Shown here one piece after another: positions 1 through 63,457 of a DNA stretch of 64,000 nt. Positions within the stretch are counted from its first letter, which is position 1, and every line of letters starts with the position of its first letter. The position numbers were made by a program, and so were the translations under genes. The notes below the pieces were generated by a model that was given only the letters and a program-made list of their open reading frames with translations, ran no database searches and was not told the origin of the DNA. Origin of the DNA: Corynebacterium glaucum (lineage in GTDB: Bacteria > Actinomycetota > Actinomycetes > Mycobacteriales > Mycobacteriaceae); the NCBI RefSeq assembly GCF_030408855.1, contig NZ_CP047358.1:1-64000 (forward strand). Reading direction: 5' to 3'.

Positions 1-1593
1 GTGGCAGACCAGCAACTCGAGGCACTTTGGCGCGACCTGGTTGCAGAACTCCTCCAACTCTCCGAACGCCCAAATTCACCCGTTCCCACGCTCACACACC
101 AGCAACGCGCCTACCTCCAGTTGGTCAAGCCAGTAGTGCTTGTCGACGGCTACGCCATCCTTTCCGCACCGCACACCGCAGCCAAAACCGTGGTGGAGGA
201 GTCGCTCGCCCCGCACATCGAGGCTCAGCTCCAAGCGCGTCTCGGCACCCCGTTCACGCTCGCGGTCTCGATCGCGGCTCCCGGCGTGCAGGAGGTCGGC
301 CCGCCGCAGCAGGAGCCGCCGATCGCCCAGCCGCAGACAGAGTGGACCGCGACGCAGAGCTCCCACACGCTACACCCGCCGGCAGAATCGACGTACGGAT
401 TCGCCGCACCCGGGGACCAGATCCCGATGGGGCTTGACGAGTTGGCGCAGATGCATGCGAGGCAAACGGAGGAAAATGAGCGTCGACAAGCAAATGTTCA
501 CCCCACGGTGCCGCAGCGTATCCGCCGTGAGAAACCTGCGCACGACCCAGACCGTGAAGCAAGCCTGAACCCGAAGTACACCTTCGAGAACTTTGTGATC
601 GGCTCCTCGAACCGCTTCGCCAACGGCGCCGCGGTAGCCGTGGCCGAGAATCCAGCGCGCGCATATAACCCACTGTTTATATGGGGCGGTTCTGGGCTTG
701 GCAAGACACACTTGCTGCACGCGGCCGGCAACTACGCGCGCGTGCTCGAGCCGAACTTGAAGATCAAGTACGTGAGCTCGGAGGAGTTCACCAACGATTA
801 CATCAACTCCGTGCGTGATGACCGGCAAGAATCGTTCAAGCGGCGCTATCGCAACCTGGACATCTTGATGGTCGATGACATCCAATTTCTTGAGGGCAAG
901 GAAGGTACGCAGGAGGAGTTCTTCCACACCTTCAACGCTCTGCATCAAGCGAACAAGCAGATCATCCTGAGTTCGGATCGGCCGCCGCGGCAGCTGACGA
1001 CGCTGGAGGACCGTCTGCGCACGCGCTTTGAGGGCGGGCTGATTACTGACATTCAGCCGCCGGATTTGGAAACGCGCATTGCGATTCTGATGAAGAAGGC
1101 CGCGGCCGACGGGACGCAGGTGAGCCACGACGTGCTCGAGCTCATTGCGTCGCAGTTTGAATCATCAATTCGCGAGCTTGAGGGCGCGTTGATTCGCGTG
1201 TCTGCGTATTCGTCGCTTATCGACGAGCCGATCACCATGGACGTCGCCCAGGTGGCGCTTCGGGACATCCTGCCGGATGAGAACGATGTGACCGTCACGG
1301 CGACGACAATCAAGGACGCCGCGGCTGAGTACTTCCAGGTCGGTGTGGAGCAGCTAACCGGTGCTGGTAAGACCCGGCATGTGGCGCACGCGCGCCAAAT
1401 CGCGATGTATCTGTGCCGCGAGCTGACAGATCTGTCGCTGCCGAAGATCGGCGACGAGTTCGGCGGCAAGGACCACACCACCGTGATGTACGCGGACCGG
1501 AAAATCCGGAAAGAAATGACGGAAAACCGCGGCACCTACGACGAGATCCAGGAACTCACGCAGTTAATCAAGAACCGCGCGCGGACGCGGTAG
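1..1593 (+). CDS. dnaA: Chromosomal replication initiator DnaA
   Basis: DnaA is the AAA+ initiator that binds DnaA boxes, melts the origin and helps load the replicative helicase. The 530-residue protein has the usual layout: an N-terminal interaction domain (about 1-90), a long low-complexity linker to about 185, an AAA+ core with Walker A GGSGLGKT at 229-236 and Walker B with the DD pair at 292-293, and a C-terminal DNA-binding domain with the signature GGKDHTTVMYADRK from residue 488. The start is GTG at the first base of the window, so the promoter lies outside. It is unusual that the next gene is not dnaN: a surface-protein gene and an IS element lie between dnaA and oriC/dnaN, about 4.9 kb in all. 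Identity is certain. Confidence 0.99.
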   Translation: MADQQLEALWRDLVAELLQLSERPNSPVPTLTHQQRAYLQLVKPVVLVDGYAILSAPHTAAKTVVEESLAPHIEAQLQARLGTPFTLAVSIAAPGVQEVGPPQQEPPIAQPQTEWTATQSSHTLHPPAESTYGFAAPGDQIPMGLDELAQMHARQTEENERRQANVHPTVPQRIRREKPAHDPDREASLNPKYTFENFVIGSSNRFANGAAVAVAENPARAYNPLFIWGGSGLGKTHLLHAAGNYARVLEPNLKIKYVSSEEFTNDYINSVRDDRQESFKRRYRNLDILMVDDIQFLEGKEGTQEEFFHTFNALHQANKQIILSSDRPPRQLTTLEDRLRTRFEGGLITDIQPPDLETRIAILMKKAAADGTQVSHDVLELIASQFESSIRELEGALIRVSAYSSLIDEPITMDVAQVALRDILPDENDVTVTATTIKDAAAEYFQVGVEQLTGAGKTRHVAHARQIAMYLCRELTDLSLPKIGDEFGGKDHTTVMYADRKIRKEMTENRGTYDEIQELTQLIKNRARTR

Positions 1594-3030
1594 CGGTGAG
1601 AGGGTTTTTAATTAGCTAGGTAAAGCTTGTGTAACCCCTGAAAGATTCCATGTTCAGCCTGTAGACATGCATGGAAGCTCCCTGTACGCTTACCAGGTCC
1701 TATCTTTTCAGGGAGGAATACATGTTAATTCAGAATGGGAGCTCGGGCGGCAAAACGCGCCCCTTCTCCGGCATTCGAAAATCTGTGGTTGCCGCAGTGA
1801 CTGGTGTAGCGCTTGCGCTGGGGTCTGTTACAGCGGCACCTATGGCGGAAGCGCAACCGGCCGTCCAGCCGGATTATCCAGACGACTCTCGAGCTTGGGA
1901 TCCGAAGCTTCCGTTCGGGCCCGGGCAGGACATCGCAAATAATCCCTCGTTAACTCCTGGGATTTGCGGTGGCAAAAATGGCAATCTAAAGATTGCGCTC
2001 GTCTTCGATGTCTCCTCGTCAATCGGAGAAGACGGTCTTCGAGACACTAAGTCTGCAGGGGACGCGGTGGTGACGGCGCTCAACGATGCACCTGTGCAAA
2101 TTGGTATTTACAATTTCGGGACCAAGGCGCCTTCGTCCTACAGCGAAGGCGCACAGACGAAGGAAGGTCCACTAGCAACCGGCTCGGAAGAGGTGCTGAA
2201 GGAAAAAATCGCGCAGCTAGCGATTCCAGCCCGACCGCGCATTCAAGGGACCAACTGGGATCGAGGTATCAGCCAGATTCCCACCGGAACCTATGACGTT
2301 GTCTACTTCATCACAGACGGATTGCCCACCGCATACGGTGACGCAGTTGGCAGCGTCGATACCCAACGTGGAGCGAACAACCGACCTGCTTTCAATCACG
2401 CTAATGGTGGTGCAGCGAACAAGGATTACGCTGCCGCGAAACTCGATGTCCAGGAAGCTGTGAAATCAGCAAACGCTCTTAAAGCATCCGGTACACGCAT
2501 CGTGCCACTCGCGGTGGGCAAGGACGTTAAAGGCGATCTCGCTAGCACTTACCTCGAATACATCTCTGGACCAGGGGATGCAATTCCAGTCGATGATTAC
2601 GGTCAGTTGACAAAACAATTGGTAGCTCAAGCAACTGAAGGCTGCGCGGGCGAAGTTACCATCCAGAAGCAGCTGACTGACGCCAACGGAAATCTCACAA
2701 ACGATTCTCCCGCGGGTTTCTCGTTCGAAGCATCAGGGATTTCAGAGAAGTTCCACCTCACTAACACCACGGCGATCACCGGTGATGATGGGAAAGCGAC
2801 CTTCGGTTACGTTGCACCTGATAACGCAGCAAGCGGTTCTTTCACTATCAAGGAAGTCGGAGCGGAGTTCAAAAACGTCTCTTGCACCTCGGCTGATGGT
2901 GAGCCTTGGGAGCGAAACGGCAACTCTTTTATCGTCCCAGCAAAGGCTGGCGGCGAAGCTGAGTGTACCGTCACTAACCCTGCACCTGTGACAGTTACAG
3001 TCACGGAAACTACGACCGAGACACCGTCGA

Positions 3031-5980: not shown

Positions 5981-6475
5981 CTTATCCACAGGGTTATTCA
6001 CACCTGTGTAATTACGACGGAGAAATTTGGTGACGTCGGCCACAGAGGCGCTTTTCCACAGATTCGGGGTCCGCGTCGGGAGATGGGGATAAGAAAGCGC
6101 CGCGTGTGGATTGGCGGTGGGGAAACCGGGGCGGTTTGTGGGATTCGTCGATAAGCGAAAATTGCTCCACAAGATTGCCGGGTTGTGCACAAGCGATCCA
6201 CAAGCCGAATCACAAGATTGAATTGTGCTGCGACCGCGGCAAACCCGGCTCAATCCACAGTTTCAACACCGCTTACTGTTGTTACCGTTCTTTTTCCTTG
6301 TAATTCATCAAGAGAAAGAGAGGGTGTGCACAAGACTGCGCGCCTTGGCTCAGTGTGAGGCTCGCATGCTCGGGGATCGGCGAGGAAGCTTTAGAAATTT
6401 CGAGCATGCCCGCCTAGAGTGAAAACGTAATTTCAAGAATCCAGCACAACCGACCTCGAGGGAGCAGCCAGCAGC
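5981..6475. other. oriC: Chromosomal replication origin (oriC) with DnaA boxes
   Basis: This 495-bp non-coding stretch directly precedes dnaN. DnaA-box-like nonamers: TTATCCACA 5982-5990 (perfect), TTATTCACA 5994-6002, TTTTCCACA 6052-6060, TGTGGATTG 6105-6113 (reverse), TGCTCCACA 6163-6171, CGATCCACA 6194-6202 and CAATCCACA 6251-6259. Most are degenerate beyond the first two. The region from about 6205 to 6310 is comparatively AT-rich and could be the unwinding element. Its right end presumably also carries the dnaN promoter. A copy of the interspersed motif (CGTCGATAAGCGAAAA) lies at 6146-6161. The assignment rests on box density and position; the start site of replication itself is not visible from sequence. 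Confidence 0.85.
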
Positions 6476-7687: not shown

Positions 7688-8872
7688 TTGTACGTCGCCG
7701 AACTTGACCTGCGAGATTTCCGCTCCTGGCCGGAACTGCACCTTGATCTTGAGCCGGGTGTCACCGTCTTCGCCGGTCGCAACGGTCACGGCAAAACCAA
7801 CATCGTCGAGGCGCTCTATTACACCTCCCACCTGCGCAGCCACCGCGTTTCCGGCGACGGCCCGCTGATCGGAGCGCAGGCAAGCAACGCGCGCATCTCC
7901 GCGACCACAATCAACGAGGGCCGCGCGCTGACCACTCACTTGCTGATCCAGCACAGCGGCGGCAACCAAGCGCAGATCAACCGCACTCGCCTGAAGTCGC
8001 CCCGCGAACTCGCGGGAGTGCTGCGCACCGTGATGTTCTCGCCGGAGGATCTCCGCCTGGTCAACGGCGAGCCGTCTGAGCGCCGCCGCTTCCTCGACGA
8101 CCTCGCCGCACTGCGCACGCCGCGCCTCGGCGGAGCGCGCGCCGACTACGAGAAGGTCCTGCGCCAACGCAATGCACTGCTCCGAAACTCCAACATGGCG
8201 CTGCGCCGCGGTTACAGCGACGACACCGGCGCCAGCGCGCTGAGCACACTCGACGTCTGGGACGGTCAGCTCGCAGCGTACGGCAGCCAGGTGCTCGCCG
8301 GTCGCATGTTGCTTATCGACGCCCTGTCCGACCTCATCACCGAGGCCTACGCCGCCGTCGCCCCGGAGTCGCGCCCCGCGGCGGTACAGATCAAGTCCAC
8401 GCTGGACCGAGCTGTCGCCGAGCTCGCGGGCGGGGAAACCAGAGACCCAGCGATCTTCGAGGCAGCGATGCTCTCCGAGTTGGGCCGGCGCCGCTCGGAG
8501 GAGATCGACCGCGGCACGACGCTGGTCGGCCCGCACCGCGATGACCTCGTGCTCATGCTCGGTGATAACCCGGCGAAGGGCTACGCCTCCCACGGCGAGA
8601 CCTGGTCCTACGCGCTCGCGCTGCACCTGGCCGAGTACCAGCTGCTCAGCTCAGATGGCTCCGACCCTGTGCTCATCCTCGACGACGTGTTTGCAGAACT
8701 CGACGCGAAGCGCCGCGAGCGCCTGGTCCACGTCGCTGAGGGTGCAGAGCAGGTGCTGATCACCGCCGCGGTTGGCGACGATCTACCGGGCAACCTCGAC
8801 GACGCAGTCACCGCGCGCTACGCCGTGACCATGGATGAAGGGGTGAGCAGCATTGAGCGATCTGATCAGTGA
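7688..8872 (+). CDS. recF: DNA replication and repair protein RecF
   Basis: RecF is an SMC/ABC-like ATPase that loads RecA at single-strand gaps. The 394-residue protein has Walker [11 protein letters not shown] at about 29-38, an N-terminal [11 protein letters not shown] segment typical of the family, and a C-terminal Walker [12 protein letters not shown]. The start is a TTG 12 bp after dnaN with no obvious Shine-Dalgarno, suggesting translation coupled to dnaN. Its stop overlaps the following gene by 20 bp. Confidence 0.97.
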
Positions 8873-9470
8873 CACCTTTGAAGTCTGGCGCGAGACAGCT
8901 CGGCGGCGGGGTGGGCGCTTGCCGGATCTGTCGCGGCAGGGCACGTCGGTGGTGCCGAGGCGCAGCGTCGGAAAATCTGCGGTGACTAGCTCCGCGGCAG
9001 GGGAATCGCAGGTGAAGGTTCCGGGATTGGCGTTGGACGAGGCGTCGATAAGCAAAAAGCCCCAACCCCTGCGAGGCCGGCCAACTGGGCAGGATGGCCG
9101 TGCGATTCCGCGTGGGTACAAGGTGGATTCGCTGGGTGCGCTGCTGGGGCGCGAGATTCGCAAGCGCGACTGGAGCGAAAACATGGCCTACGGGTGGGTG
9201 ATGGGCAATTGGGAATCGCTGGTGGGTGTCAAGATTGCGCAGCACACCGAGGTGAAGATGATCAAAGAGGGCGAGGTGCACATCGAGTGCGACTCGACCG
9301 CGTGGGCGACGCAGCTGAAGTACATGCAGTCGACGGTGCTGAAAGCGATCGCGGAAAAGGTTGGTGCCGGTGTGATTACCAAGCTGCATATCTACGGGCC
9401 GAAAACGAAGTCGTGGCGCAAGGGTCCGCTGCATGTGCCGGGGCGGGGGCCGCGGGATACGTACGGATAA
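8853..9470 (+). CDS. dciA: DciA-family (DUF721) replicative helicase loader/operator
   Basis: The 205-residue protein belongs to the DUF721/DciA family, which interacts with the DnaB helicase and is the common helicase-loading factor in bacteria lacking DnaC or DnaI. The N-terminal half is basic and low in complexity. The conserved domain lies in about 95-190, including the segments [19 protein letters not shown] and [16 protein letters not shown]. The start is TTG at 8853, inside the recF end, so the two are probably translationally coupled. The neighbourhood recF-dciA-gyrB is typical of actinobacteria. A copy of the interspersed motif lies in the coding sequence at 9043, where it reads as Ser-Ile-Ser-Lys. 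Confidence 0.9.
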
Positions 9471-9897: not shown

Positions 9898-12258
<2,361 letters not shown>

Positions 12259-12314: not shown

Positions 12315-13127
12315 ATCGACACCTACCCCGCATCCAGCCAGCACGGCGACCGCCCGCTCGTCGTCATCTTCCCCGGCATGGGCATGGGCGCACGCTACTA
12401 CCGCCCAATTGCCGGGGCGCTCGCAGACGCCGGGTTCCCCACAGCTATCGGAGAGCTCCGCGGCCAGGGCGAGAGCCCCGCCGTCGCCTCCCGCTCCAAC
12501 CAGTGGGGCTACCACCACGTCGCAGCGGAGGACTATCCAGCCACGATCAGGCAGGCTAAGCAGGAGCTTACGCTTGACGACGACACGCCTGTCATCCTCC
12601 TCACCCATTCAATGGGCGGACAAGTGGGCACCCTTTTCATGGCGCGTCCAGAGGCTAAGGAGTGCAATGTGGTCGGCATGCTCGGCGTTGGCGCCGGCAA
12701 TCCGTGGCACAAGGCGTTTCCGTTGCGTGACAAGCTGAAGTACGGCTTGGGCATCCAGTTCATCTGGCTCGTTGCGCAGGTCCTGGGCTATTGGCCGGGA
12801 GACAAGATCTCAGTCGGCGGCAGCTGGGGCCGCCATCCGCGCACTTACATCAATGAGTGGGCGCGCATGAACCGCACTGGCAAGCGCGGGAAACTCGCGG
12901 GCGCGGACATGGATTACATCAAGGCGATGAAGCGTATCGACGTGCCGGTGGTGCTCACCCGTTTCACCAATGACCGTGACTGCACGGTCGCTTCCGCGCA
13001 GTCGTTGGCCGATCAGGTCTCCGGAGCCACCGTCGAAGAGCTCGACGGTGGGCTTGGCCATAATCGGTGGGCGAGGGAACCGCGTGCCGTCGTTAAGCGA
13101 ATGCTCGAGTTTGCTGACGAGCTGTAG
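12315..13127 (+). CDS. Alpha/beta hydrolase with apparent ATC start
   Basis: The protein is a serine hydrolase of the alpha/beta fold: strand RPLVVIFPG with the oxyanion turn, nucleophile elbow LLTHSMGGQ, and a late His in GGLGHNRW. Substrate unknown. The first in-frame ATG (12378) lies after the first conserved strand and has no ribosome binding site. Upstream, an in-frame TAA at 12309-12311 leaves only ATC 12315 as a possible start, and AGGAG at 12301-12305 sits 9 nt before it. From ATC the protein has 270 residues and an intact first strand. No GTG, TTG, CTG or ATG exists between the stop and 12378. It lies 56 bp after gyrB. Confidence 0.75.
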   Translation: MDTYPASSQHGDRPLVVIFPGMGMGARYYRPIAGALADAGFPTAIGELRGQGESPAVASRSNQWGYHHVAAEDYPATIRQAKQELTLDDDTPVILLTHSMGGQVGTLFMARPEAKECNVVGMLGVGAGNPWHKAFPLRDKLKYGLGIQFIWLVAQVLGYWPGDKISVGGSWGRHPRTYINEWARMNRTGKRGKLAGADMDYIKAMKRIDVPVVLTRFTNDRDCTVASAQSLADQVSGATVEELDGGLGHNRWAREPRAVVKRMLEFADEL

Positions 13128-14473: not shown

Positions 14474-14746
14474 CTAATCACCTTCCGCCCAGCGCGAATA
14501 CACGTCTCGCGTCACGTCGGCAAAGGCTGAGTTGTGGTTGGTCAGGGGCTGCAGTTGGACGATGGCGTCGTGAAGCGAACTGCTCCCCTCGGTGACTGAC
14601 CCACAAACCGGAACCCCGTGGACGCGCGCGCCGGGGACGGCTGCGGCGGCGGCGAGCGCGGCGAAGGAGCGGATGTGCACCTTATATGCGGCGCAGAACT
14701 CGTCCGCGATGGCGAGGAGCTGCTCGGGGGAGAGGGCGCGCGTCAT
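14474..14746 (-). CDS. Doc/Fic-like toxin of a TA pair, catalytic motif degenerate
   Basis: The 90-residue protein begins at ATG 14746, overlapping the stop of the upstream CopG-like gene in an ATGA, the usual arrangement of an antitoxin-toxin operon. The order LSPEQLLAIADE, an IRSF-ALAAAAAVP-ARVHG block, then TNHNSAFADVTRDVY, parallels Doc toxins (LTxxE.. , RD-LLxSAxxRPxxxxxG, NHxFxDGNKR). The Fic catalytic signature is not preserved: HxFxDGNKR is replaced by HNSAFADVTRD. Either the protein is an inactive relative or my alignment is too generous. Confidence 0.5.
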   Translation of the reverse strand: MTRALSPEQLLAIADEFCAAYKVHIRSFAALAAAAAVPGARVHGVPVCGSVTEGSSSLHDAIVQLQPLTNHNSAFADVTRDVYSRWAEGD

Positions 14747-15036: not shown

Positions 15037-17748
<2,712 letters not shown>

Positions 17749-18381: not shown

Positions 18382-18554
18382 CGCCTTGCGACGGGCGAAA
18401 CTGTCCCCATTTGGGGGACGCGGGTACTCGGCGGCGCAATTCGTCGATAAGCAATCGAAGCTTGTGAGCGCACTGCTGATTTGTGTTCTGGTGAGGCTGG
18501 TGTGTACACCCCGAGGGTGTAACCTCGATGCACTTATCTGCGCCTTTCTTCTAT

Positions 18555-22248: not shown

Positions 22249-22358
22249 TGTGAAATCCTTTTCGGTACTTGGTCGTAGGAGTTTTTCGCTTTACGACGGT
22301 ACCGAAAACGCTTCGACAGCACTCTACCGCCACCGGTTGGGGCTGTTTGCAGGCGCGG

Positions 22359-30725: not shown

Positions 30726-30749
30726 GGCGTCGATAAGCGAAAAGCTCTA

Positions 30750-42778: not shown

Positions 42779-43348
42779 ATGAGCGACTCCTGTATTGACC
42801 TTGTGCAGCTCGACGCCACCGACGATCCGGACCAGGCACAGCACCTCCAGCGGTGGCTGCGCGAGCGAGCGTGGACGCGCGCGGCCGAAGCTGAGTTCAA
42901 GGCGCCGCACCCGACGACGTCGGAAAGCGGGCTGCTCCGGCTCACCGACGCGCTGGCGCCGAAGGGCATGCAGCTGCTGCGCAACGAACCGCGCGGTGAA
43001 ATCGCGGTGACCATTACCTCCGGGTGGCGGGCATACACCGCAACGGCGAACTACGAGCCGCCCGCTTGCCCGGCGTGCGGCGAACGCGCCGAGCCAATAA
43101 TCGGTGCGGAAAGTGCGGACCCGTTCATTGAAGTGGTGGGCTCGTGGTGGGAAACGCGCGTTGCGCCGGAGCACACCTGCCCGCTGTGCGACCACCGCGC
43201 GGTGATCACCGACTGGAACCTGGACAACGCAGTCGCGTGTTCGTCGCTCGCCATCACCGCGGAGATGTATGGGGCCGAGAACGATCTGCGGCAGGAGCTG
43301 GAGGGTGAATTCGGTGGTCAATGGGCGACAATGCACGAACATATTTAG
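42779..43348 (+). CDS. Hypothetical protein with two CxxC pairs
   Basis: The 189-residue soluble protein starts at ATG 42779. It carries CPACGE (about residue 101) and CPLCDH (about 137), spaced like a split zinc ribbon, and a WW-ET motif between them. I do not recognise the family. The start has no ribosome binding site; TATTCT at 42767-42772 ends 6 nt before the ATG, so the mRNA may be leaderless, with the promoter lying in the terminator tail of tRNA-Leu. Confidence 0.65.
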   Translation: MSDSCIDLVQLDATDDPDQAQHLQRWLRERAWTRAAEAEFKAPHPTTSESGLLRLTDALAPKGMQLLRNEPRGEIAVTITSGWRAYTATANYEPPACPACGERAEPIIGAESADPFIEVVGSWWETRVAPEHTCPLCDHRAVITDWNLDNAVACSSLAITAEMYGAENDLRQELEGEFGGQWATMHEHI

Positions 43349-50425: not shown

Positions 50426-51598
50426 ATGATCGAAGACACCATTTGGTGGCACGTGTACCCGCTCGGCGCGACCGGCGCCCCGATCCGCGACCGCGGCGAC
50501 AACCCAAACGACGCAGATCACCGCCTCCGCCAGCTCGAGCCGTGGTTGGACTACCTCATCGAACTTGGCTGCAACGGCCTCCTACTGGGCCCGATTTTTG
50601 AGTCGGTCGGGCACGGCTACGACACGCTCGACCACTACCGCATCGATTCCCGCTTAGGCGATGACGAAGACTTCGACCACTTGATCGCCGCCTGCAAGGA
50701 GCGCGGCATCAACGTGATGCTTGACGGCGTGTTCAACCACGTCGCGCGTACCCACCCGTGGGTTGCCGAAGGGCTTGCCGGCGACACCGACTGGGAAGGC
50801 CACGGCGAGCTTGCCACCCTGCACCACGGAGATGAGCAGGTGAAACAGGCAGTCACGGGCATCATGCTGCACTGGCTGCGTCGCGGGATCGCCGGGTGGC
50901 GCCTCGACGTGGCGTATTCGGTACCCCCGGAGTTCTGGCGCGACGTGCTCGCCCGCGTCCGCGAGGAGTTCCCCGACGCGCTCATCCTCGGCGAGGTCAT
51001 CCACGGCGACTACGCCGAGATCGCGCAGGCTGGCACCTTGGATTCAGTCACCCAGTACGAGCTGTGGAAGGGGATTTGGAGCTCGCTTCACGACGAAAAC
51101 TTCTGGGAACTCGATCACGCGCTGGCGCGCCACCAAGCAATCGCGTCGAAGACACTGCCTAACACCTTCATCGGCAACCACGACGTCGACCGGATCGCCT
51201 CCAAGGTGGGCCAGGACAGGGCAATTCTCGCGCTTGCCATCCTCATGAGCGTGGCCGGCATGCCGAGTATTTACTACGGCGATGAGCAAGGGTTTGAGGG
51301 GTTGCGCACCGAGGGCTTTAGTGCCGACGACAGCGTGCGTCCCGCGTTGCCCGCCTCACCGAAAGAGCTCTCCCCATTGGGCAACTGGATCTACGTCGAG
51401 CACCAAAAGCTGATCGGGGTGCGCCGGCGCAACCGGTGGCTTACCCGCGCCACGACGGAGGTTCTGGACAAGACAAACGAGACGATCTCGTTCCGCTCCT
51501 TCAGCGACGACGGTGAGCTGCAGCTCGACGCGTGGGTGCAGCCAAAACCTGGCGTGCGGATCCACGCCGGGGGCGAGACGCTTTACGAGTGGTCTTAG
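50426..51598 (+). CDS. GH13 alpha-amylase-family protein
   Basis: The 390-residue enzyme shows the four GH13 regions: DGVFNHV (I), GWRLDVAYS (II, nucleophile Asp), ILGEVIHGD (III, acid/base Glu) and FIGNHDVDR (IV, Asp). All three catalytic acids are present. The protein is short, so domain B and the C-terminal domain are reduced. There is no signal peptide, so it acts in the cytosol on alpha-glucans or maltodextrins. The start ATG 50426 lies 7 nt after TACCTT (50413-50418). Its end overlaps the next gene's end by 4 bp (convergent). Confidence 0.92.
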   Translation: MIEDTIWWHVYPLGATGAPIRDRGDNPNDADHRLRQLEPWLDYLIELGCNGLLLGPIFESVGHGYDTLDHYRIDSRLGDDEDFDHLIAACKERGINVMLDGVFNHVARTHPWVAEGLAGDTDWEGHGELATLHHGDEQVKQAVTGIMLHWLRRGIAGWRLDVAYSVPPEFWRDVLARVREEFPDALILGEVIHGDYAEIAQAGTLDSVTQYELWKGIWSSLHDENFWELDHALARHQAIASKTLPNTFIGNHDVDRIASKVGQDRAILALAILMSVAGMPSIYYGDEQGFEGLRTEGFSADDSVRPALPASPKELSPLGNWIYVEHQKLIGVRRRNRWLTRATTEVLDKTNETISFRSFSDDGELQLDAWVQPKPGVRIHAGGETLYEWS

Positions 51599-52161: not shown

Positions 52162-52165
52162 GACC

Positions 52166-53530
52166 CTACGCGCCGACGAAGCGGCGCACCAGTGCGCGAT
52201 AGGCATCCGCGGTGAGCTTGACGTCCTCCACCTCAACGTATTCGTCATGAGTGTGCAGCAGATCGAGCACGCTGCCCAGCGTCTGATTGCGGCCGTGCAG
52301 CGCAAACCCGTAGCCCGCCCCACCTTTGCGGCGGCCAAAGCGCAGGTCCGAACCACCCGCAGCCAGGGTAGGCACAACGGGGACACCTGGGAAGAACTCG
52401 TCGAAGGTGGCCAAAATCGCATCGTACAGCGGGCCGGAGGTGGGGGAGACGGTGGCATCTTCGGTGATCAGGTGGGTGATCTCAACCTCGTCAGCGAGAT
52501 CTCCGAGCGCCTCGCGCAACAGCGCGTCGATGTCCGCTTGAGTCTGGCCGGGCAGCGGACGGCAGTCCATTTCGAGCCAGGCCGTCGACGGCAAGACGTT
52601 GATCGCCTGACCGGCTCGCAGCACGGTGGGCGCGATCGTCAAGTGGCTCATGGCGTGGGAATAGCGCTTCAGGGGCCCGAGGGCGTCGTACGAGGAACCG
52701 TCGAGAAGCGATTGTTCCGTGACTGGATCGAACTTGAAGGCCCGCACGTAGCCGGGCCACGGCTCGTCGCGGCTGACGTTGGGCTCGATGGCGGCGATGC
52801 GTCGCGCGACCTCGGCGATCTTGGCCACCGCGAGGTTACGCCCGTGTGGCGCGGAACCGTGGCCGGCGTCGCCGTGCACCGTTAGGCGGCGCTGGCCTGC
52901 GCCTTTCTCGCCGACGACGACGATGAGCGCATCGGAACCGTCCGTCACCGGCAGATGGGATCCGCCCTCCTCGCTCAGGCAGTTCTTCCACGAGAACGCA
53001 TCGGGGGCGTGCTCAGCGAGCCAACCAGCGCCGAGCCCGCCACGAGCCTCCTCGTCCGCGCAGCCGACAAAGGTCAGCGTGCCGCGCGGGGCCACTCCGG
53101 AGGAGGAGACATCACGTACGGCCGCGGCCATGGCGGCGGTGATGTAGAGCATGTCGGTCGCCCCGCGTCCGTAGATGCGCCCGCCGTCCTCCTCGGCACC
53201 GAAAGGGTCGCGGGTCCACTTCGCCTCATCCACCGGCACGACATCGGTGTGGCCGAGCAGGGTGAGCGGCTCAGCGTCCGGGTCGGTGCCCTCGATGGTG
53301 AAAGCGACGGAGACGCGGCCCGGGTGCGGCTCGAAGCGCTGTACTTTTACCGGAAGCGCGGTATCACCGACCTCAGCGAAGAATGCCTCCAACGTGTCTG
53401 CGCTGCGGGCTTCCTGGCCGGAATCCGGCGTGAGGTCGTTCACGCACGCGTTGCGGATCAGGTCTTTGAGCAGCGTAATCGTCGCAGAGGCAACGGAGCT
53501 TCGGGCATCAGAGGCGGAGCGAGAGTCCAT
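52166..53530 (-). CDS. M20-family metallopeptidase
   Basis: The 454-residue cytosolic protein has the di-zinc site of M20 peptidases: His and Asp in LLGHTDVVPVD, Asp in YGRGATDM, Glu-Glu in CADEEARGG, and a late His in GFALHGRNQ. A dimerisation domain lies in the middle. Such enzymes are dipeptidases or amino-acylases; the substrate is unknown. The gene is divergent from a TetR gene, with 114 bp between starts. Confidence 0.9.
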   Translation of the reverse strand: MDSRSASDARSSVASATITLLKDLIRNACVNDLTPDSGQEARSADTLEAFFAEVGDTALPVKVQRFEPHPGRVSVAFTIEGTDPDAEPLTLLGHTDVVPVDEAKWTRDPFGAEEDGGRIYGRGATDMLYITAAMAAAVRDVSSSGVAPRGTLTFVGCADEEARGGLGAGWLAEHAPDAFSWKNCLSEEGGSHLPVTDGSDALIVVVGEKGAGQRRLTVHGDAGHGSAPHGRNLAVAKIAEVARRIAAIEPNVSRDEPWPGYVRAFKFDPVTEQSLLDGSSYDALGPLKRYSHAMSHLTIAPTVLRAGQAINVLPSTAWLEMDCRPLPGQTQADIDALLREALGDLADEVEITHLITEDATVSPTSGPLYDAILATFDEFFPGVPVVPTLAAGGSDLRFGRRKGGAGYGFALHGRNQTLGSVLDLLHTHDEYVEVEDVKLTADAYRALVRRFVGA

Positions 53531-54314: not shown

Positions 54315-55089
54315 AGAGCTGCGCGAGCATCTCGGTCAGCGCATCAATCGCGTCGATGGTGTCTTGGAACGAGCCGTCCTCGCTCACCGCGCCAACCGAG
54401 ATGCCGTAAAGCTGCCCGTCAATCTCGCCGAAACCCATCTGCCGCGACTGCCAGGAGCCGTCCTCGTCAATGTCGCCCCAGCCGCCCTTGATCGGAATGT
54501 TCAACTCGCCGAGGCCCCACGCCTGCTCGTCGGCAATGTTGCGCATGTGCCGGATGACCTGGCTGGACTTCACGTCCGGGCGCTGCGAAAGCCCGTAGGC
54601 GTAGCGCGCCTGCGCGGCAAAGGGCCACGGCGTGCGGCCCCACGCGATGTCCACGCGCCCGCCTATCTCGTCGTGCACCAGCTCCTGCGCGCCGCCTGCG
54701 GCCTCGAGGCAGTACCACAAAGCGTCGGTCGCGTCGTTGTCGGAGATTTCAATCGAGGATTCAATCAAGTCCGCGATGTAGTCGTCGTCGTATTCGCAGT
54801 GCTCCTCGGCTGCGAACGCGATAGGCACTTTCACCGTCGACCACGCCGGCAGGGACCGGACTGAGCCGAAGTTGAGTTCGGACGTGCCGTCGTAAAGCGA
54901 AAGCCCCAGGCGGGTCGAAGTTTGCCGTTCGATGCGGGCGATCTCGCGGTCAAGTTTTTGCGTATCGATGCCCGCGTCAACTGGTGGTTTGGTCTCCGCT
55001 ACCACTACCGGCTCCGGCTCAGCATGCGTTGAGCATCCGCTGAGTATCCCCGCCAGCACCGCGATCGACACCACCCGTTTCGCATTCAC
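54313..55089 (-). CDS. Beta-lactamase-fold serine hydrolase lipoprotein
   Basis: The 258-residue protein has a lipoprotein signal with lipobox LSGC (Cys19). The fold of class A beta-lactamases is suggested by STVK in AWSTVKVPIAF, SDN in EISDNDAT, and KGG in NIPIKGGWG as the KTG equivalent. It is shorter than true class A enzymes and lacks an obvious ExxLN omega-loop Glu, so beta-lactam hydrolysis is doubtful; a DD-peptidase or esterase role is equally likely. It is anchored outside the membrane. Its start is only 20 bp from that of the divergent AMP nucleosidase gene. Confidence 0.8.
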   Translation of the reverse strand: MNAKRVVSIAVLAGILSGCSTHAEPEPVVVAETKPPVDAGIDTQKLDREIARIERQTSTRLGLSLYDGTSELNFGSVRSLPAWSTVKVPIAFAAEEHCEYDDDYIADLIESSIEISDNDATDALWYCLEAAGGAQELVHDEIGGRVDIAWGRTPWPFAAQARYAYGLSQRPDVKSSQVIRHMRNIADEQAWGLGELNIPIKGGWGDIDEDGSWQSRQMGFGEIDGQLYGISVGAVSEDGSFQDTIDAIDALTEMLAQL

Positions 55090-55109: not shown

Positions 55110-56504
55110 ATGCACCAGGTGGACACAGCAGCCCAGGCAGTCGAGGAACTTATCTCGCTTTACGACGGCGCGTGTGGTCGCGCGCGCGACGCAATCGCAA
55201 GCGGAAAGTACGAGTCCTACAGCAGCGTGGTCTACCCGAAGCTCTCAGTGCGCGTGACAGCGTGGCATCCGATCAACCGCTCCGAGCCATTCGGCTACGT
55301 GGACGAGGCCGGGGTCTACTCCGCGGTGCTGTCCCGCCCCGACCTCATGCGCCCATACCTCTTAGCTCAACTCGAGGCGCTGACCTCAAACTACGAGTGC
55401 GAGGTGTGGGTCGGGGAATCGGACGTGTGCATCCCGCCGGAGTACATCACCGGCATCGACGACCTGTCGGCTGTGCGCGGCTCCAACACCCCGCACGTGC
55501 CGCGCCCGACGCTGGACGAGGTTGACGATGCGATTGTCGACGGGCACTGGGACGCGTTCCACGGCGAAGAGAAACCGCTGTTCCAATTCGGGCCGCAGCG
55601 TTTTGATCTGGCGCTGGCCCGCCTAGAGCACTACACGGGCATTTCGCCGGAGTCGTTGCAGAAGTACATCCTGTTCACCAACTACGCCATGCACGTCACC
55701 GAATTCGTGCGCTTCGGGGTGCGCGAGCTTTCCAACCCGGATTCGCGCTACACCAGGCTGGTGCTGCCCTCGGGCGAGACGGTGTCGGACACCGTTGCGC
55801 TGGAGGACCTGGAGCTCGGCTCGAAGTTCCAGATGCCGCGCTATGACTTGGTCTGCGAAGGTGGCGACGGCATCACCATGATCAACATTGGTGTTGGGCC
55901 GTCGAACGCGAAGACGATTACGGATTGTCTGGCGGTGCTGCGCCCGGAGGCGTGGATCATGATCGGGCACTGTGCGGGCATGGACGCGCGCATGCGTATC
56001 GGCGACCTGATCTTGGGCAACGCCTACGAGCGTCGGGACCATGTGTTGGACGAGCACATCGGCCGTGACCAGCCGATCCCCGCCGTGCCCGAGATCCAGC
56101 GCACGCTGGAGAAGGCGGTGGAAAAGGTCTACGGCGATGAGACGTCGCTGATGCGCACCGGCACCGTGCTGTCGACGGGGGATAGGAACTGGGAGTGGAA
56201 GTCCCCGCGCGACCTGTGGGATTGGCTGCGCGGCTCCACGGCGGTGGCGGTGGACATGGAGTCCTGCACGCTCGCGGCCAACGGATACCGCTACCGCGTT
56301 CCCTACGGCACGTTGCTCGCCGTGTCCGACCTGCCGCTGCACGCCGTGCCGAAGCTGCCCGCAGGCGCGCAGGCGTTTTACTCCAACTCGAAGGAGGCGC
56401 ACGTGATGTGCGCCGTGCGCGCGATGGAGCGCCTAGCCAGGAATCCGCGTCGGCTGCGCACCCGCAAGCTGCGCCGCACGATCGGCGAGGTTCCGTTCCG
56501 CTAG
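55110..56504 (+). CDS. amn: AMP nucleosidase
   Basis: The 464-residue protein is full length for Amn, which splits AMP into adenine and ribose 5-phosphate. It has the N-terminal AMP-nucleosidase-specific domain (to about 180) and a nucleoside-phosphorylase-fold catalytic domain. Motifs include INIGVGPSNAKTITD, IGHCAGMDARMRIGDLILG and AVDMESCTLAANG. TATTCT (55097-55102) ends 7 nt before the ATG, so the mRNA is probably leaderless. Confidence 0.94.
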   Translation: MHQVDTAAQAVEELISLYDGACGRARDAIASGKYESYSSVVYPKLSVRVTAWHPINRSEPFGYVDEAGVYSAVLSRPDLMRPYLLAQLEALTSNYECEVWVGESDVCIPPEYITGIDDLSAVRGSNTPHVPRPTLDEVDDAIVDGHWDAFHGEEKPLFQFGPQRFDLALARLEHYTGISPESLQKYILFTNYAMHVTEFVRFGVRELSNPDSRYTRLVLPSGETVSDTVALEDLELGSKFQMPRYDLVCEGGDGITMINIGVGPSNAKTITDCLAVLRPEAWIMIGHCAGMDARMRIGDLILGNAYERRDHVLDEHIGRDQPIPAVPEIQRTLEKAVEKVYGDETSLMRTGTVLSTGDRNWEWKSPRDLWDWLRGSTAVAVDMESCTLAANGYRYRVPYGTLLAVSDLPLHAVPKLPAGAQAFYSNSKEAHVMCAVRAMERLARNPRRLRTRKLRRTIGEVPFR

Positions 56505-56553: not shown

Positions 56554-57525
56554 ATGGCCCAGCACACCTCCCCGGACAGGACGCAGACGCAGCCGCAGTT
56601 CGACGACCCCGCGATCGCGATTGCGCACCGTAGCGCCGTGCGCTCGATCGAGCGGGTGGTCTGTGAAACCGCGGTGCCGACGGACCCGTCGAAGGCGAAG
56701 CGCAACGTCCTTGCGCAGCTGGAACACCCCAAAGTGCTGATTGTCACCGGCGCGGGCATGTCCACCGAATCGGGCATCCCGGATTACCGCTCGAAGAACG
56801 GCCGCCTGACCAAGGGCCGCCCCATGACGTTCCAGGAGTTCGCGCACTCGCCGGAGCAGGTGCGCCGCTACTGGGCCCGCGCCTTTGTCGGCATTCGCTT
56901 CATGCGGGCGGCGCACCCGAACCGCGCACACTTCGCCCTGGTGGAGCTGGAGCGCGCCGGGCTGACCACCGGCATCGTCACCCAAAACGTCGACGGTCTG
57001 CACACCGAGGCCGGTTCCGCGAACGTCATTGCGTTGCACGGGGACATGGACCATGTGGTGTGCCTCGACTGCCACGCGTTGCATGAGCGATCGCTTATCG
57101 ACGCCCTGTTTGACGCCGCCAACCCCGACTTCTTCGAATCGGTGCGGGTCGAAGGATCCATGATCAACCCGGACGGAGACGTGGAGCTGCGCGATGCCGA
57201 TGTGCAGCGCTTCGAAATGGTCGCCTGCCCCGCCTGCGGCGGTGCGCGGTTGAAGCCGAACGTGGTCTACTTCGGCGAGAACGTGCCGAAGTCCCGCCGC
57301 GCGGAGGCGGACCGCTGGCTTGCGCAGTCCACCTCCGTCATCGCGATTGGCACGAGCCTGGCGGTGATGAGCGGGTACAAGTTCGTGCTCGATGCCAAGC
57401 GCCAGGGCAAGCCGGTCGCGGTAATCAACGGGGGACCCGGCCGGGCGGACACCAAGGCGGACACTGTCTGGCGCACCAATGTGGGTGACGCGCTGGATCA
57501 AGTCCTCGACGGGCTGGGCCTATGA
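56554..57525 (+). CDS. Sir2-family NAD-dependent protein deacylase
   Basis: The 323-residue sirtuin has the NAD-binding motif GAGMSTESGIPDYRSKNG, TQNVDGLH, a catalytic His in ALHGDMDHV, and zinc Cys pairs CLDC and CPAC. The C-terminal part has GTSLAVMSGYKF and NGGPGRAD. The extra N-terminal 50 residues are variable. Two residues replace the usual Ala-Gly of class II/III members, so the acyl preference is unclear. TACCCT at 56540-56545 ends 8 nt before the ATG. The next gene overlaps by 4 bp. Confidence 0.93.
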   Translation: MAQHTSPDRTQTQPQFDDPAIAIAHRSAVRSIERVVCETAVPTDPSKAKRNVLAQLEHPKVLIVTGAGMSTESGIPDYRSKNGRLTKGRPMTFQEFAHSPEQVRRYWARAFVGIRFMRAAHPNRAHFALVELERAGLTTGIVTQNVDGLHTEAGSANVIALHGDMDHVVCLDCHALHERSLIDALFDAANPDFFESVRVEGSMINPDGDVELRDADVQRFEMVACPACGGARLKPNVVYFGENVPKSRRAEADRWLAQSTSVIAIGTSLAVMSGYKFVLDAKRQGKPVAVINGGPGRADTKADTVWRTNVGDALDQVLDGLGL

Positions 57526-58631
57526 TCGCAGCCGTCGTCAATGCCCTGGGTCTTGTGGCTATCCTCGCCTTCGCGTGGTGGCGATACCAGGTCAACGCCG
57601 ACGAGCTGGGAAATGTTTTCGCGAACCACCTGGCTGAAGAAGTACCGACAGATCTGCAGGTCTATCTTCTTGGCGGCCAGCGCGTCTCTGAGGGTTTGCC
57701 GCTTTATGGCGGCGACCTCTTGCCCGGGCTGCCGTTCACGTACCCGCCGTTCGCCGGGGTGGTGTTCTCGTGGTTCGGCGAGGCCCGCCCGGCGCTCGGG
57801 ATCGCGTGGACCGTGGCGTCGATAATTGTGCTGGCCTGGGTGGTGTGGGAGTCGGGGAGGAAAGGTTCCGGATTTACGCCGGTAATCCTGCTGACTGCGT
57901 TCTTCGTCGTGTGTACGGAGCCGGTGCACGCCACGCTGTTTTTCGGGCAGGTCAATGTCTTCCTCATGGCGCTGGTCTGCCTGGATTTTCTGCCGAAGAA
58001 CCGCTGGTCTGGCGTGGGTACCGGCTTGGCCGCGGGGTTCAAGCTCACACCGGCGTTTTTCATCTTGCTGTTTGCCCTGCGCCGCCAGTGGGGCGCAGTA
58101 TTCGTTGCGGCGTTCACGTTTCTGTGCACGGTTGCAACGGGCTTTGCCGAGGTCAAGGATGCCGGCCGTTTCTGGACGGAGTCAATGTTCAACTCCGACC
58201 GCGTCGGCTCCGCCGATAACCCGGGTGCGCAGGCGATCCGCCAGGTGTTGGAGCGTCAGTTCGGCATTGACTCCACGGGGGTTTGGCTCGCGCTCGCGGT
58301 AGCAGTCACGGTACTGGCTGCAGTGGCCGCGCACTTTGCTTTACGACGGGACGAGGTTGCCCTAGCGGTCGCCTTCATCGGGATGGCGTCGTGCCTCGTC
58401 AGCCCCTTCTCGTGGCATCACCACTGGGTGTGGATCGTGCCGTTCGGCGTGGTGATCTACCGGTGGTGGGGTGTGCTCGCACTCACGCTGTTCATGCTCC
58501 CGTACGTAGCACTGAATGTGTCGTACGGGTTGTTCATGGTGCCGGAGCTGCTCTTCACCGCGGTGCCCATCGGGTTCATGGTGTGGTTTGTTGCCCGCGA
58601 AGCCTTCGGCGCGTTGGCGCAGCGCTCCTAG
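57522..58631 (+). CDS. GT87-family membrane glycosyltransferase
   Basis: The 369-residue protein has about nine membrane helices. GT87 (DUF2029) enzymes use polyprenyl-phosphate mannose and act outside the membrane in lipomannan and arabinan synthesis of Corynebacteriales. Typical parts are PLYGGDLLPGLPFTYPPFAG after helix 1, FFGQVNVFLMALV, GLAAGFKLTPAFFIL and PFSWHHHWVW. The ATG overlaps the stop of the sirtuin gene (ATGA). A role in envelope lipoglycan assembly is likely, but the linkage is not predictable. Confidence 0.88.
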   Translation: MIAAVVNALGLVAILAFAWWRYQVNADELGNVFANHLAEEVPTDLQVYLLGGQRVSEGLPLYGGDLLPGLPFTYPPFAGVVFSWFGEARPALGIAWTVASIIVLAWVVWESGRKGSGFTPVILLTAFFVVCTEPVHATLFFGQVNVFLMALVCLDFLPKNRWSGVGTGLAAGFKLTPAFFILLFALRRQWGAVFVAAFTFLCTVATGFAEVKDAGRFWTESMFNSDRVGSADNPGAQAIRQVLERQFGIDSTGVWLALAVAVTVLAAVAAHFALRRDEVALAVAFIGMASCLVSPFSWHHHWVWIVPFGVVIYRWWGVLALTLFMLPYVALNVSYGLFMVPELLFTAVPIGFMVWFVAREAFGALAQRS

Positions 58632-59959: not shown

Positions 59960-60049
59960 GATCGCTCTTTCCTAGACAGATCAGTTCATATAGGTGAAAT
60001 TACTAGCGCACAACCTACTCTTTTCTCCTAGAACGTCAAGATCTAGAAG

Positions 60050-60065: not shown

Positions 60066-60105
60066 AAGCGTGCCGTCGTTAAGCAAAAAGCCTTAAGCTG
60101 GGCCC

Positions 60106-60630: not shown

Positions 60631-61647
60631 CGCCACGGCGCGCGCGATGTCGCGCACCATCTCGCGGTGGGTGGGCAGCATGCGCAGGTCCACCTTCGCC
60701 CTGAACGTCTCGCGCACAGCCTGCGCGAAGGGGGCGGGGGCGAGCGGATCATCGATGAACGCGCTGCCCGCAATGACCACGGTTGCAGGTTCGTGGGCTT
60801 CGCACAGCTCGCCGACCAGCTCGCCCAAACCGCGCGCACGGCGGTCGAGGGCCTCGCGCGAAACGTGCTGCACGGTCGTGTCGGTCACCGCTTGGCGCAG
60901 GGTGCGTATCGACGGCTCGTTGATCTGCTCTAGGAGCCCCTGGGTGGTCAAATCCTCGCGGACCACTTCGATCGGAGCGACTTCCTCATCGGTGCCCACC
61001 GCCGCGGCGATGGAATCGTCGGCGAAAAGCGCGAGCACCGAGGGCATGGCGAGGTCGGTGCTGGATTGCATCTCGGAACCGACGATGGCCGCGGACACCG
61101 AGGTGACCTGCACGGGGACTGCGAACTGTTCGCGCAGCTGCGCGCCGAGCTCAACGTCGTACCAACCGAGGTTCGGCGCGGTGACGCTGCCGGAGTCGGT
61201 CACAGTGCCCGAGGCAGTGACGCCGACGGTGGCCAGCGGGCGGTTCAGACCCGCTGAAAGGCGGTTCAGGCCAGCCATGATGTGCTGGATGAAGTCGTCT
61301 TGATCCAGCGCGGCGACGGAGAGTTCGAGGTCAACGCTGCGCAGCAGGTGGCCTTTGAGGTCGAACAGCCCGATGTAGGTGGAGTCGGTGCCAATAGACA
61401 CCCCGGCGTGCACCGCCCGGGGCTCCGCCAACTCGAGCGGCACCGTGGGGCGGCCGCGGCCCGTCGAGCGGGCGAGGTCCATGCGCTCGGTAACGTAACC
61501 GGCCTCGACCAGGGCCGTTACCGCACGGGTGATCGTCGGCTGCGACAGCCCGGTGGCTTCGATGAGCTCGCTTCTCGACGTCAGCTCGCCCAGGCGCACA
61601 AGGTGTAACGCCTTCGCGGCGGGCGACCTGGGTCGAGAGAAAGCCAT
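60586..61647 (-). CDS. ROK-family transcriptional regulator
   Basis: The 353-residue protein has an N-terminal winged helix-turn-helix (about 18-65: SRSELIEATGLSQPTITRAVTALVEAGYV) and a ROK/actin-like ATPase-fold domain (GVSIGTDSTYIGLFDL, TVGVTASGTV). The zinc-binding Cys motif of sugar-kinase ROK members is not seen. It probably represses transport or metabolic genes in response to a sugar or similar ligand. A 14-bp perfect palindrome lies 10 bp upstream of the start. Confidence 0.9.
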   Translation of the reverse strand: MAFSRPRSPAAKALHLVRLGELTSRSELIEATGLSQPTITRAVTALVEAGYVTERMDLARSTGRGRPTVPLELAEPRAVHAGVSIGTDSTYIGLFDLKGHLLRSVDLELSVAALDQDDFIQHIMAGLNRLSAGLNRPLATVGVTASGTVTDSGSVTAPNLGWYDVELGAQLREQFAVPVQVTSVSAAIVGSEMQSSTDLAMPSVLALFADDSIAAAVGTDEEVAPIEVVREDLTTQGLLEQINEPSIRTLRQAVTDTTVQHVSREALDRRARGLGELVGELCEAHEPATVVIAGSAFIDDPLAPAPFAQAVRETFRAKVDLRMLPTHREMVRDIARAVALDLVLADPVAMAPS

Positions 61648-61657
61648 GTTGCAAGTA

Positions 61658-61718
61658 CTACCTTAAGGTAGACCGCCTTGTCCATTCGTTGACGTGTCCA
61701 GCAAGGCAGAATAGACCG
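61658..61718. promoter_or_regulatory. Operator region of the ROK gene
   Basis: CTACCTTAAGGTAG (61658-61671) is a perfect 14-bp palindrome just upstream of the ROK start. It overlaps TAGACCG (61669-61675), which recurs at 61712-61718, 43 bp away (about four turns). Autoregulation is likely. Confidence 0.6.
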
Positions 61719-61789
61719 CTTGGTATGCCGTATGGGGCCTGCTCGCAACGGTTCAGCGGTTTTGGGTCCGTGGGTTAGAATCCCTAGCC

Positions 61790-63457
61790 ATGACTTCACT
61801 CTCCGCGGCCATACGCGAAACCTCGCTACTGGACGCAACCTGCGAAGACTTTGTTTATGACCTCGTCGAACTCGTGCCCACCGTGGGCACCCAGATCGGC
61901 CTCGACGGCCACGACGGGGAGCTGCAGGACTATAGCCCAGCGTTCTGGGACGCAGTCGCGGACCGCATCCGCGACTTGGTCCAGGACGTGGAGGCACTCA
62001 ACGACTCCACCGACGCGTGCGATGACGAAGATGATTTTGACGATGTCGACCGCCTGACCGCTGCAATCCTGCGCGACCAGATGACGTTTGAGCTGGACCT
62101 GCACCACCGCGGCGAATACCTGCGCCGACTGAACATTATTGATTCCCCAGTGCAGACCATCCGCGACTCGTTCGCGCTGATGCCGAAGGTCACCCCGGAA
62201 GACTTCGACAACATTGCCTCGCGCATGTCCAAGGTGCGCACGGCGCTGCGCGGCTACGCGGAATCGCTCGCCGAGGCTGCGCAGACCGGCGATGTCGCTT
62301 CGCACCGTCAGATCGACGGCGTGATTAGCCAGTGCGAGGCGCTTGCGGACGACGGCTCCCTGCTCGAGCGCCAGGGCCTGCCGCCTGAATCGGCCGTGGT
62401 GGAGGAAGCGAAGCAAGCGTTCTCAGAGTTCGCCGACTGGCTCTCCACAGAGCTCTCCCCACAGGCCACCCATGAAGATGGCGTGGGGCGCGACCGCTAC
62501 GAGATGTTCTCCGAGTTTTTCCTGGGCCGCAGCATCGACCTCGACGAGGCGTACAACTGGGCCAAGGACGAACTGGCAAAAACCGTCGACGAGCAGGTGC
62601 AGCTCGCCCACAAACTCTACGGCTCGGACACCAACGTGCTGGGCGCGTACCGCCAGCTCAACGAAGATCCGCGCTACCAAGTCCACGGCACCGACGCGCT
62701 GATGGAGTGGATGCGCAGCGTCAATGACGATGTGCGCAGCGAACTCAACGGCAAGGACCTCACCGTCCCTGAGGATCTGCCCCCCGTCGAGTGCGCCATC
62801 GACGGTGCCGGCTCCGGCGGGATCTTCTACACCCCGCCGTCAGACGACCTGTTGCGCCCAGGCACCATGTGGTGGTCCGTGCCGGAGGGCCAGGAGGTCT
62901 TCCACACCTGGCAGGAGCTGACCACGGTCTTCCACGAGGGCATGCCGGGCCATCACCTGCAGATCGCTACGACGCTGCTGCAGCGCCGCGACCTGAATCT
63001 GTGGCGCCGCTCGCTGTACTGGAACTCCGGCCACGGCGAGGGTTGGGCACTCTACGCCGAGCACCTCATGGCCGACCACGGCTATTTCGACGATCCGGGC
63101 TACCGCATGGGCTTGCTGGATTCTCGCAGGTTGCGGCTCGCACGAGTGCTTGTCGACGTCGGCGTGCACCTGAAGAAAGCCACCCCGGATGGCATCGGAA
63201 CGTGGGATGCGCAGTACGCCAAGGCCTTCCTGCGCGATAACTGCGCCATGATGGAGGCGAACCTGTCCTTCGAGTTGGACCGCTACATGGGCTGGCCGGG
63301 ACAGGCGCCGTCGTACGCGATCGGTTACCGCGACTGGCTCACCCTGCGCGACAAAGCGCTCGCCGAGGGTATGGATCTGCGCCGCTTCCACGACAAGGCG
63401 CTCCGCCTCGGCTCGATGCCGATGGACATGCTGGCCAACGAGGTGCTCAACCACTAA
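61790..63457 (+). CDS. DUF885-family protein (putative metallopeptidase)
   Basis: The 555-residue protein is full length for DUF885. The hallmark HEGMPGHHLQ (about residue 382), a gluzincin-like HExxxxH arrangement, is followed by YWNSGHGEGWALYAEHL with a downstream Glu as probable third ligand. The family is thought to be carboxypeptidase-like, but substrates are not established. There is no signal peptide. TAGAAT (61776-61781) ends 8 nt before the ATG, so it is probably leaderless. Confidence 0.9.
   Translation: MTSLSAAIRETSLLDATCEDFVYDLVELVPTVGTQIGLDGHDGELQDYSPAFWDAVADRIRDLVQDVEALNDSTDACDDEDDFDDVDRLTAAILRDQMTFELDLHHRGEYLRRLNIIDSPVQTIRDSFALMPKVTPEDFDNIASRMSKVRTALRGYAESLAEAAQTGDVASHRQIDGVISQCEALADDGSLLERQGLPPESAVVEEAKQAFSEFADWLSTELSPQATHEDGVGRDRYEMFSEFFLGRSIDLDEAYNWAKDELAKTVDEQVQLAHKLYGSDTNVLGAYRQLNEDPRYQVHGTDALMEWMRSVNDDVRSELNGKDLTVPEDLPPVECAIDGAGSGGIFYTPPSDDLLRPGTMWWSVPEGQEVFHTWQELTTVFHEGMPGHHLQIATTLLQRRDLNLWRRSLYWNSGHGEGWALYAEHLMADHGYFDDPGYRMGLLDSRRLRLARVLVDVGVHLKKATPDGIGTWDAQYAKAFLRDNCAMMEANLSFELDRYMGWPGQAPSYAIGYRDWLTLRDKALAEGMDLRRFHDKALRLGSMPMDMLANEVLNH

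Follow-up and report, generated by a model that had tools for sequence, protein, structure and literature searches.

The first 64 kb of the Corynebacterium glaucum chromosome (the window, positions 1 to 64,000 of a single contig of 2,529,320 bp, labelled G000 among our genomes) contain 12 exact copies of the 11-mer GCTTATCGACG, as an earlier note on this DNA had stated. A fourth-order Markov model of the window predicts 0.12 copies. Allowing up to one mismatch raises the count to 33; over 100 dinucleotide shuffles the mean was 1.35, and 33 was never attained.

The near forms of the 11-mer concentrate at positions 5-6, as seen in an 864-kb sample of the chromosome that combines the window with 40 pieces of 20 kb at even spacing, together 34% of the genome. 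There, the bipartite pattern GCTT-NN-CGACG is present at 538 sites, with spacer counts of 172 for AT, 82 for GT, 57 for GA and 36 for GC. As all 16 spacers occur, the unit is GCTT-NN-CGACG (hereafter the word) and not the 11-mer. The same half-sites at spacer lengths of 0, 1 or 3-15 give just 11-72 sites. G precedes the word in only 5% of cases, and base 13 is C in 66-76%. The window itself holds 45 words (Table 1): beyond the exact 11-mers there are 33 further copies differing at positions 5-6, where the earlier note had counted about 20. Among the intergenic copies cited there, those at 6146, 18442 and 30728 are exact, whereas those at 60074 and 22288 are the AA and TA forms.

Whole-genome counting, proposed in the same note as a check, gave a result far above the control. 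The exact 11-mer occurs 245 + 263 = 508 times in the chromosome and its reversed form 0 + 1 times; for the word, the numbers are 770 + 784 = 1,554 and 46 + 57 = 103. This corresponds to about one word per 1.6 kb and one exact 11-mer per 5 kb.

The claim that the repeat is not a codon artefact was borne out. With open reading frames taken from a simple codon model in the 34% sample, coding DNA holds 438 words, about 12-fold more than the 35.9 +/- 5.1 (maximum 50) found in 30 within-gene synonymous-codon shuffles. The excess reaches beyond the in-frame reading CTT NNC GAC (LxD in amino acids), though 283 of 435 coding sites fall in that frame. Coding DNA of the sample has 0.62 words per kb and non-coding DNA 0.55; sorted by codon typicality, the density is 0.47/kb in the least typical genes, 0.44/kb in the most typical ones and 0.53-0.81/kb in the intermediate bins.

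Intergenic copies in G000 share a longer pattern, roughly gagcttTTc-GCTTATCGACG-nCncc(TT)g: a consensus of about 35 bp with a T-rich tract. In several cases this longer pattern begins directly at a stop codon. The conserved flank described earlier is real, and it reaches further on both sides of the word. A check by strand and replichore, with the terminus placed near 1.3 Mb by GC skew, found words on both strands: 290 of the 538 sampled words are in leading and 248 in lagging orientation, without strong skew. Counts per 20-kb piece are Poisson-like (mean 12.4, variance 12.8), and gaps shorter than 100 bp number 15, against 32 expected. Close neighbours follow an orientation rule: 284 of 407 pairs less than 800 bp apart are inverted (70%, p = 9e-16), as opposed to 320 of 599 beyond 800 bp, with convergent and divergent pairs about equally numerous. 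Thirteen genomes other than G000 give 149 inverted close neighbours out of 210. The rule holds even inside genes of G000 (81 inverted, 54 same), where the codon frame would favour the same orientation.

Table 1 Words GCTT-NN-CGACG in the window.
Feature	Position	Strand	Spacer	Remark
Word	138..148	+	GT	
Word	481..491	-	GT	
Word	1215..1225	+	AT	exact 11-mer
Word	6146..6156	-	AT	exact 11-mer
Word	8311..8321	+	AT	exact 11-mer, in recF
Word	9043..9053	-	AT	exact 11-mer
Word	10860..10870	+	CT	
Word	12572..12582	+	GA	
Word	13088..13098	-	AA	
Word	14566..14576	-	CA	
Word	15357..15367	+	GT	
Word	16299..16309	+	CT	
Word	18442..18452	-	AT	exact 11-mer
Word	20084..20094	+	GT	
Word	22288..22298	+	TA	
Word	23108..23118	-	TC	
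Word	23129..23139	-	AG	21 bp from 23108 copy, same strand
Word	23897..23907	-	GA	
Word	27243..27253	+	AT	exact 11-mer
Word	27672..27682	-	TT	
Word	28741..28751	+	AT	exact 11-mer
Word	29359..29369	+	CT	
Word	29611..29621	+	GC	
Word	30728..30738	-	AT	exact 11-mer
Word	30943..30953	+	GT	
Word	31205..31215	+	CA	
Word	34455..34465	-	GT	
Word	35211..35221	+	AT	exact 11-mer
Word	35391..35401	-	GC	
Word	39217..39227	+	AT	exact 11-mer
Word	39785..39795	+	GT	
Word	40144..40154	-	CG	
Word	41175..41185	-	GC	
Word	42918..42928	-	TC	
Word	44345..44355	+	GT	
Word	46589..46599	-	AT	exact 11-mer
Word	51085..51095	+	CA	
Word	52699..52709	-	CT	
Word	54888..54898	-	TA	
Word	55157..55167	+	TA	
Word	57093..57103	+	AT	exact 11-mer
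Word	58338..58348	+	TA	
Word	60074..60084	-	AA	
Word	61570..61580	+	CT	
Word	63148..63158	+	GT	

The RecF encoded in the window shares 99% identity with that of C. glaucum DSM 30827. The window carries no word between 1225 and 6146. Its stretch 3039-4069 shows 74.6% identity to C. diphtheriae plasmid DNA annotated there as IS256/IS3 transposase, and the first part of that stretch, 3039-3382, 91% identity to a C. stationis plasmid. Two other repeated words of the G000 sample, TCGGCTCGGTC (36 copies) and TTCGGAGTGTC (19 copies), are unrelated to the word.

Among 242 Corynebacterium genomes, 171 carry 195-1,964 copies of the word and the other 71, called word-poor here, 8-134, with a reversed control of at most 119; two of the word-poor ones, G465 (115) and G473 (127), still have about four times their own control. 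Carriers include C. mucifaciens, C. riegelii, C. lipophiloflavum, C. pollutisoli and C. tapiri, together with G360 (1,183 copies), which we take to be C. glutamicum ATCC 13032. No comparable excess was found in 95 genomes of the family's other genera, where the top count is 418 against 246 reversed and the ratio never exceeds about 1.7. In a RecF tree with 33 Corynebacterium rows, explaining which are rich and which are poor takes three changes, and C. flavescens (479 copies) is sister to C. phoceense (69).

The preferred spacer varies: AT in G000, G447, G493 and G466, CT in G371, GC/GA in G302, GA/TG in G366 and TT in G384 and G360, these preferences resting on 9-79 sites per genome outside G000. 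Of the 1,720-1,901 words in G352, G365, G366 and G270, a mere 2-4 have the AT spacer. The second half-site varies as well. GCTT-NN-CGATG is raised in G298 (19 in 34 kb, 0.6 expected) and G301 (13 in 34 kb, 0.5 expected), and also in G446, G503, G402, G392, G323 and G423, making 8 of 34 word-poor locus sets; at least one genome is present twice among these sets, and G446 seems close to G298, as do G323 and G503 to G301. G423 is C. phoceense, so that this species carries the CGATG dialect whereas its sister C. flavescens has CGACG. In G524, CGACGCCAC stands after a T-rich tract 23 times in 114 kb (2.6 expected); G304 has 12 copies of CGACGCCAC in 80 kb and lacks a clear T-tract. G266, G407 and G418 show more of a T4C form (GCTC) than expected, which may be codon-driven; G328 is marginal (2 vs 0.2). 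No clear one-base dialect appeared in 16-54 kb each of G339, G426, G305, G308, G325, G408, G422, G324, G525 and G526, or of the pygosceleis, jeikeium, falsenii, suicordis, dentalis and urealyticum loci.

The idea that the 71 word-poor genomes are word losers was discarded. Initial k-mer lists for G266, G304, G415 and G524 seemed to hold no substitute; for G524 this was overturned by CGACGCCAC, and the CGATG form turned up in the eight locus sets.

Other repeats were met in these genomes. G415 (L141-L144) contains an array resembling clustered regularly interspaced short palindromic repeats (CRISPR), whose words, TCCCCGCTCAC for example, reach about 75 copies in the stretches sampled, and GGACGCCGC is also raised (37 vs 5 expected). 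In G366 (L149-L152), TTCGGGGTGGG and GGTGGGTTA each occur about 12 times in 80 kb, where 0.1 would be expected. The jeikeium-group loci L051, L062, L052, L063, L066, L046 and L049 have TTTCACGTGA 56 times over the two strands; it is part of a palindrome (about 28 sites) and resembles parS sites.

The foreign DNA examined, three phages and three plasmids, is poor in words. Phages BFK20, phi673 and P1201 hold 2 in 133 kb, where the C. glutamicum density would give 47.6. For plasmids pTET3, pCE3 and pCE2 the total is 5 in 98 kb against 35 expected, with pTET3 contributing three; C. efficiens, the host of pCE2 and pCE3, was not itself recognised among the scanned genomes. As a raw count, 29 viral contigs carry TTTCGCTTATCGACG, in a single copy each.

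Individual sites mostly turn over between species. The earlier note had proposed testing related genomes for conservation at intergenic sites. In 61 of 84 site-by-species alignments (the window's first 30 kb, 11 word-rich species) the word is not kept; it is kept in 23, slightly more than the 15.2 that local identity alone predicts, a control that is not codon-matched. The genome maintains word density more than word position.

G000 encodes tadZABC, three small pilus genes and comEA-comEC, named by homology and gene order. ComEC was found in 241 of 242 Corynebacterium genomes and a ComEA match in all 242, very weak in G423, G462, G472 and G480; TadA, DprA and an AdnB-like nuclease domain were each present in 80 of 80 genomes tested, the last equally in word-poor ones. 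Weaker matches occur in the word-poor G325 (ComEA 8e-12, DprA 2e-16) and G407 (DprA 1e-37), and G423, with a ComEA match of merely 2.6e-6, carries the CGATG dialect nonetheless. Two T2SSF (TadB/TadC) matches at E 0.01 were obtained in 24 of 40 word-poor genomes and in 40 of 40 of a second set (39 word-rich ones and G465, 115 copies), a difference that stems partly from divergent Tad proteins and, in G451, from a contig end. Both matches lie in a single open frame of 353-393 aa, not in two genes, in the word-poor genomes G524 (L161), G304, G333, G345, G346, G376, G437 and G534.

Some tad loci look damaged. Among word-poor genomes, G423 has just a remnant of TadC, and the TadC of G407 is spread over two frames; in the G418 locus TadB/E/F were not found and TadZ is mostly missing, G422 has a stop within TadA, and TadE was not found in the loci of G266, G407 and G524. 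With only 8 word-rich or intermediate loci for comparison, this is a trend. The stops flagged in TadC of G000, G302, G348, G339 and G422 are probably an effect of the query extending upstream. A comparison of the pilus proteins, leaving ComEA out, identified no reader of the word: columns tracking the CGACG/CGATG dialect number three in TadA, two in TadB and one in TadC, and are uninformative because the 8 + 8 sequences are related.

Altogether, GCTT-NN-CGACG and its sister dialects are probably, by a modest preponderance, a DNA-uptake word of Corynebacterium. This role, one of those offered in the earlier note, fits best: the word occurs on both strands with little skew, is rare in the six phage and plasmid records, has dialects with a shared core and turns over in position, and the genomes tested have competence and Tad genes. 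The genome pattern itself is observed; competence, preferential uptake and a receptor reading both half-sites are inferred, as follows. The DNA receptor of a natural-transformation apparatus would prefer double-stranded DNA bearing the word; the Tad (Flp) pilus would most likely feed this receptor, and the DNA would pass on to ComEA-ComEC. Word-bearing DNA would be taken up and recombined more often, so that words arising by point mutation would spread by uptake bias and reach a steady density, such as that of G000, while phage and plasmid DNA would stay word-poor. The receptor would contact the half-sites GCTT and CGACG (or a variant of the latter), with affinity tuned by the spacer dinucleotide and the T-rich flank, both differing between lineages. 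The inversion rule might reflect a polar start of uptake, in which a second word pointing the same way would add nothing. The wider proposal, that Corynebacterium including C. glutamicum is, or recently was, naturally transformable through the Tad pilus and ComEA-ComEC with its own bipartite words, the dialects acting as species barriers and the inverted spacing reflecting a polar uptake start, has in our judgement even chances of being right.

To our knowledge, uptake words have been described solely in Neisseriaceae and Pasteurellaceae. The DNA uptake sequences (DUS) of the former occur on both strands, in coding and intergenic DNA alike, and the uptake signal sequences (USS) of the latter consist of a core and a partly conserved AT-rich flank; the consensus of about 35 bp with its T-rich tract is similar to the core-plus-flank form of the USS of Haemophilus. 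DUS exist in several dialects with an invariant core, which follow phylogeny (PMC3630211). Like them, the Corynebacterium word is short, present in the order of 10^3 copies on both strands and split into dialects with a shared core; unlike them, it is bipartite with a free 2-bp spacer, belongs to actinobacteria with Tad genes, has inverted near neighbours and is so far a putative uptake word. The accumulation of USS has been explained by uptake bias and mutation, with uptake independent of word orientation, and published uptake words show a clear excess at one mismatch (PMC1939737). In Corynebacterium the sequence is unrelated, the single-mismatch excess is weaker and near neighbours follow an orientation rule. 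Micrococcus luteus offers an example of natural transformation in an actinobacterium with tad and comEA genes: tadA1, tadA2 and comEA are treated there as competence-related, while the term 'uptake sequence' has 0 occurrences in the main text of that paper (PMC6667448). In a survey of spaced motifs in 569 genomes, the Corynebacterium passages give only CRISPR pairs (PMC5217627).

Several observations weigh against an uptake word. Single-mismatch forms of the nine fixed bases number 635, just 1.1-1.3 times the 574 (fifth-order) or 480 (third-order) expected. The presence of ComEC, TadA, the AdnB-like nuclease, DprA or ComEA does not separate word-rich from word-poor genomes; this fits a genus-wide system with dialects, yet gives no direct link to the word. 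Three word-bearing genomes, G386 (1,618 copies), G523 (1,152) and G310 (495), each give a pair of weaker ComEC matches that may represent a split gene; in G462 (1,752 copies, a draft of about 380 contigs) the ComEA match is only 1.5e-6, and the TadF match of the word-rich G366 runs across two frames. By eye, no feature of Flp, TadE or TadF from 11 genomes separates rich from poor; in the 8 + 8 genomes, the CGACG/CGATG dialect is not followed by any column of Flp, TadE, TadF or TadZ. In the jeikeium-group loci, 11 CGACGCCAC copies in 148 kb have a T-rich flank without being in excess (8 reversed). We know of no inverted-neighbour rule among the properties of uptake words. Finally, the literature searched, with most subscription journals and preprints lying outside it, yielded no report of the word, nor of natural transformation in Corynebacterium, nor of any uptake word from Actinobacteria; five hits to exact strings of the word appear unrelated.

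The abundant DNA-binding protein suggested in the earlier note stays a rival, if an unlikely one: the word would be the site of a chromosome-organising (nucleoid or condensin-loading) protein, with inverted neighbours helping to bridge or loop DNA. Such a protein would be consistent with a bipartite site of constant 2-bp spacing and long consensus, spread in a Poisson-like manner and rare in phages and plasmids, and a two-site binder might favour inverted pairs. Most positions, however, turn over between species, no comparable excess was seen in the 95 genomes of the family's other genera, and the split between C. flavescens and C. phoceense would require a conserved protein to switch specificity repeatedly.

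Two further readings are each improbable, and to the same degree. In the first, the word is a Chi-like site that steers a helicase-nuclease of the AdnAB/RecBCD type and marks self DNA in break repair, which its frequency, its rarity in phage DNA and the AdnB-like domain of all 80 genomes tested would allow. Chi and KOPS (FtsK orienting polar sequences) are over-represented words, poor in foreign DNA and skewed along replichores. Here the orientation is barely tied to replication, without strong origin-to-terminus skew, so that Chi-like and FtsK/SMC-type signals, both named in the earlier note, lack the strand bias they need. Known Chi words are moreover shorter and mostly ungapped, the flank consensus suggests recognition of duplex DNA, and the nuclease domain is as frequent in word-poor genomes. 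In the second, the word is a self-tag of an undescribed defence or DNA-processing system, unrelated to uptake. Word-poor phage and plasmid DNA and the lack of a reader agree with this, but a genus-wide distribution with lineage dialects is unlike that of defence systems, which tend to be patchy, and no candidate system turned up, no search of defence libraries having been made. An artefact of LxD codons, of amino-acid usage or of composition bias, for which the share of coding sites in that frame might speak, is refuted by the synonymous shuffles, along with the non-coding density and the dependence on spacer length, and retains practically no probability.

If the word does not serve uptake, Corynebacterium possesses a DNA code spanning the chromosome, of which we found no description in the literature searched. 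If its role in uptake is confirmed, GCTT-NN-CGACG would extend uptake words beyond the families of Neisseria and Haemophilus, and the question is directly testable in C. glutamicum with its 1,183 copies. The set of dialects constitutes a natural experiment for finding the reader. Were the proposal true, a medically and industrially central genus would have a hidden genetic exchange with built-in species recognition.

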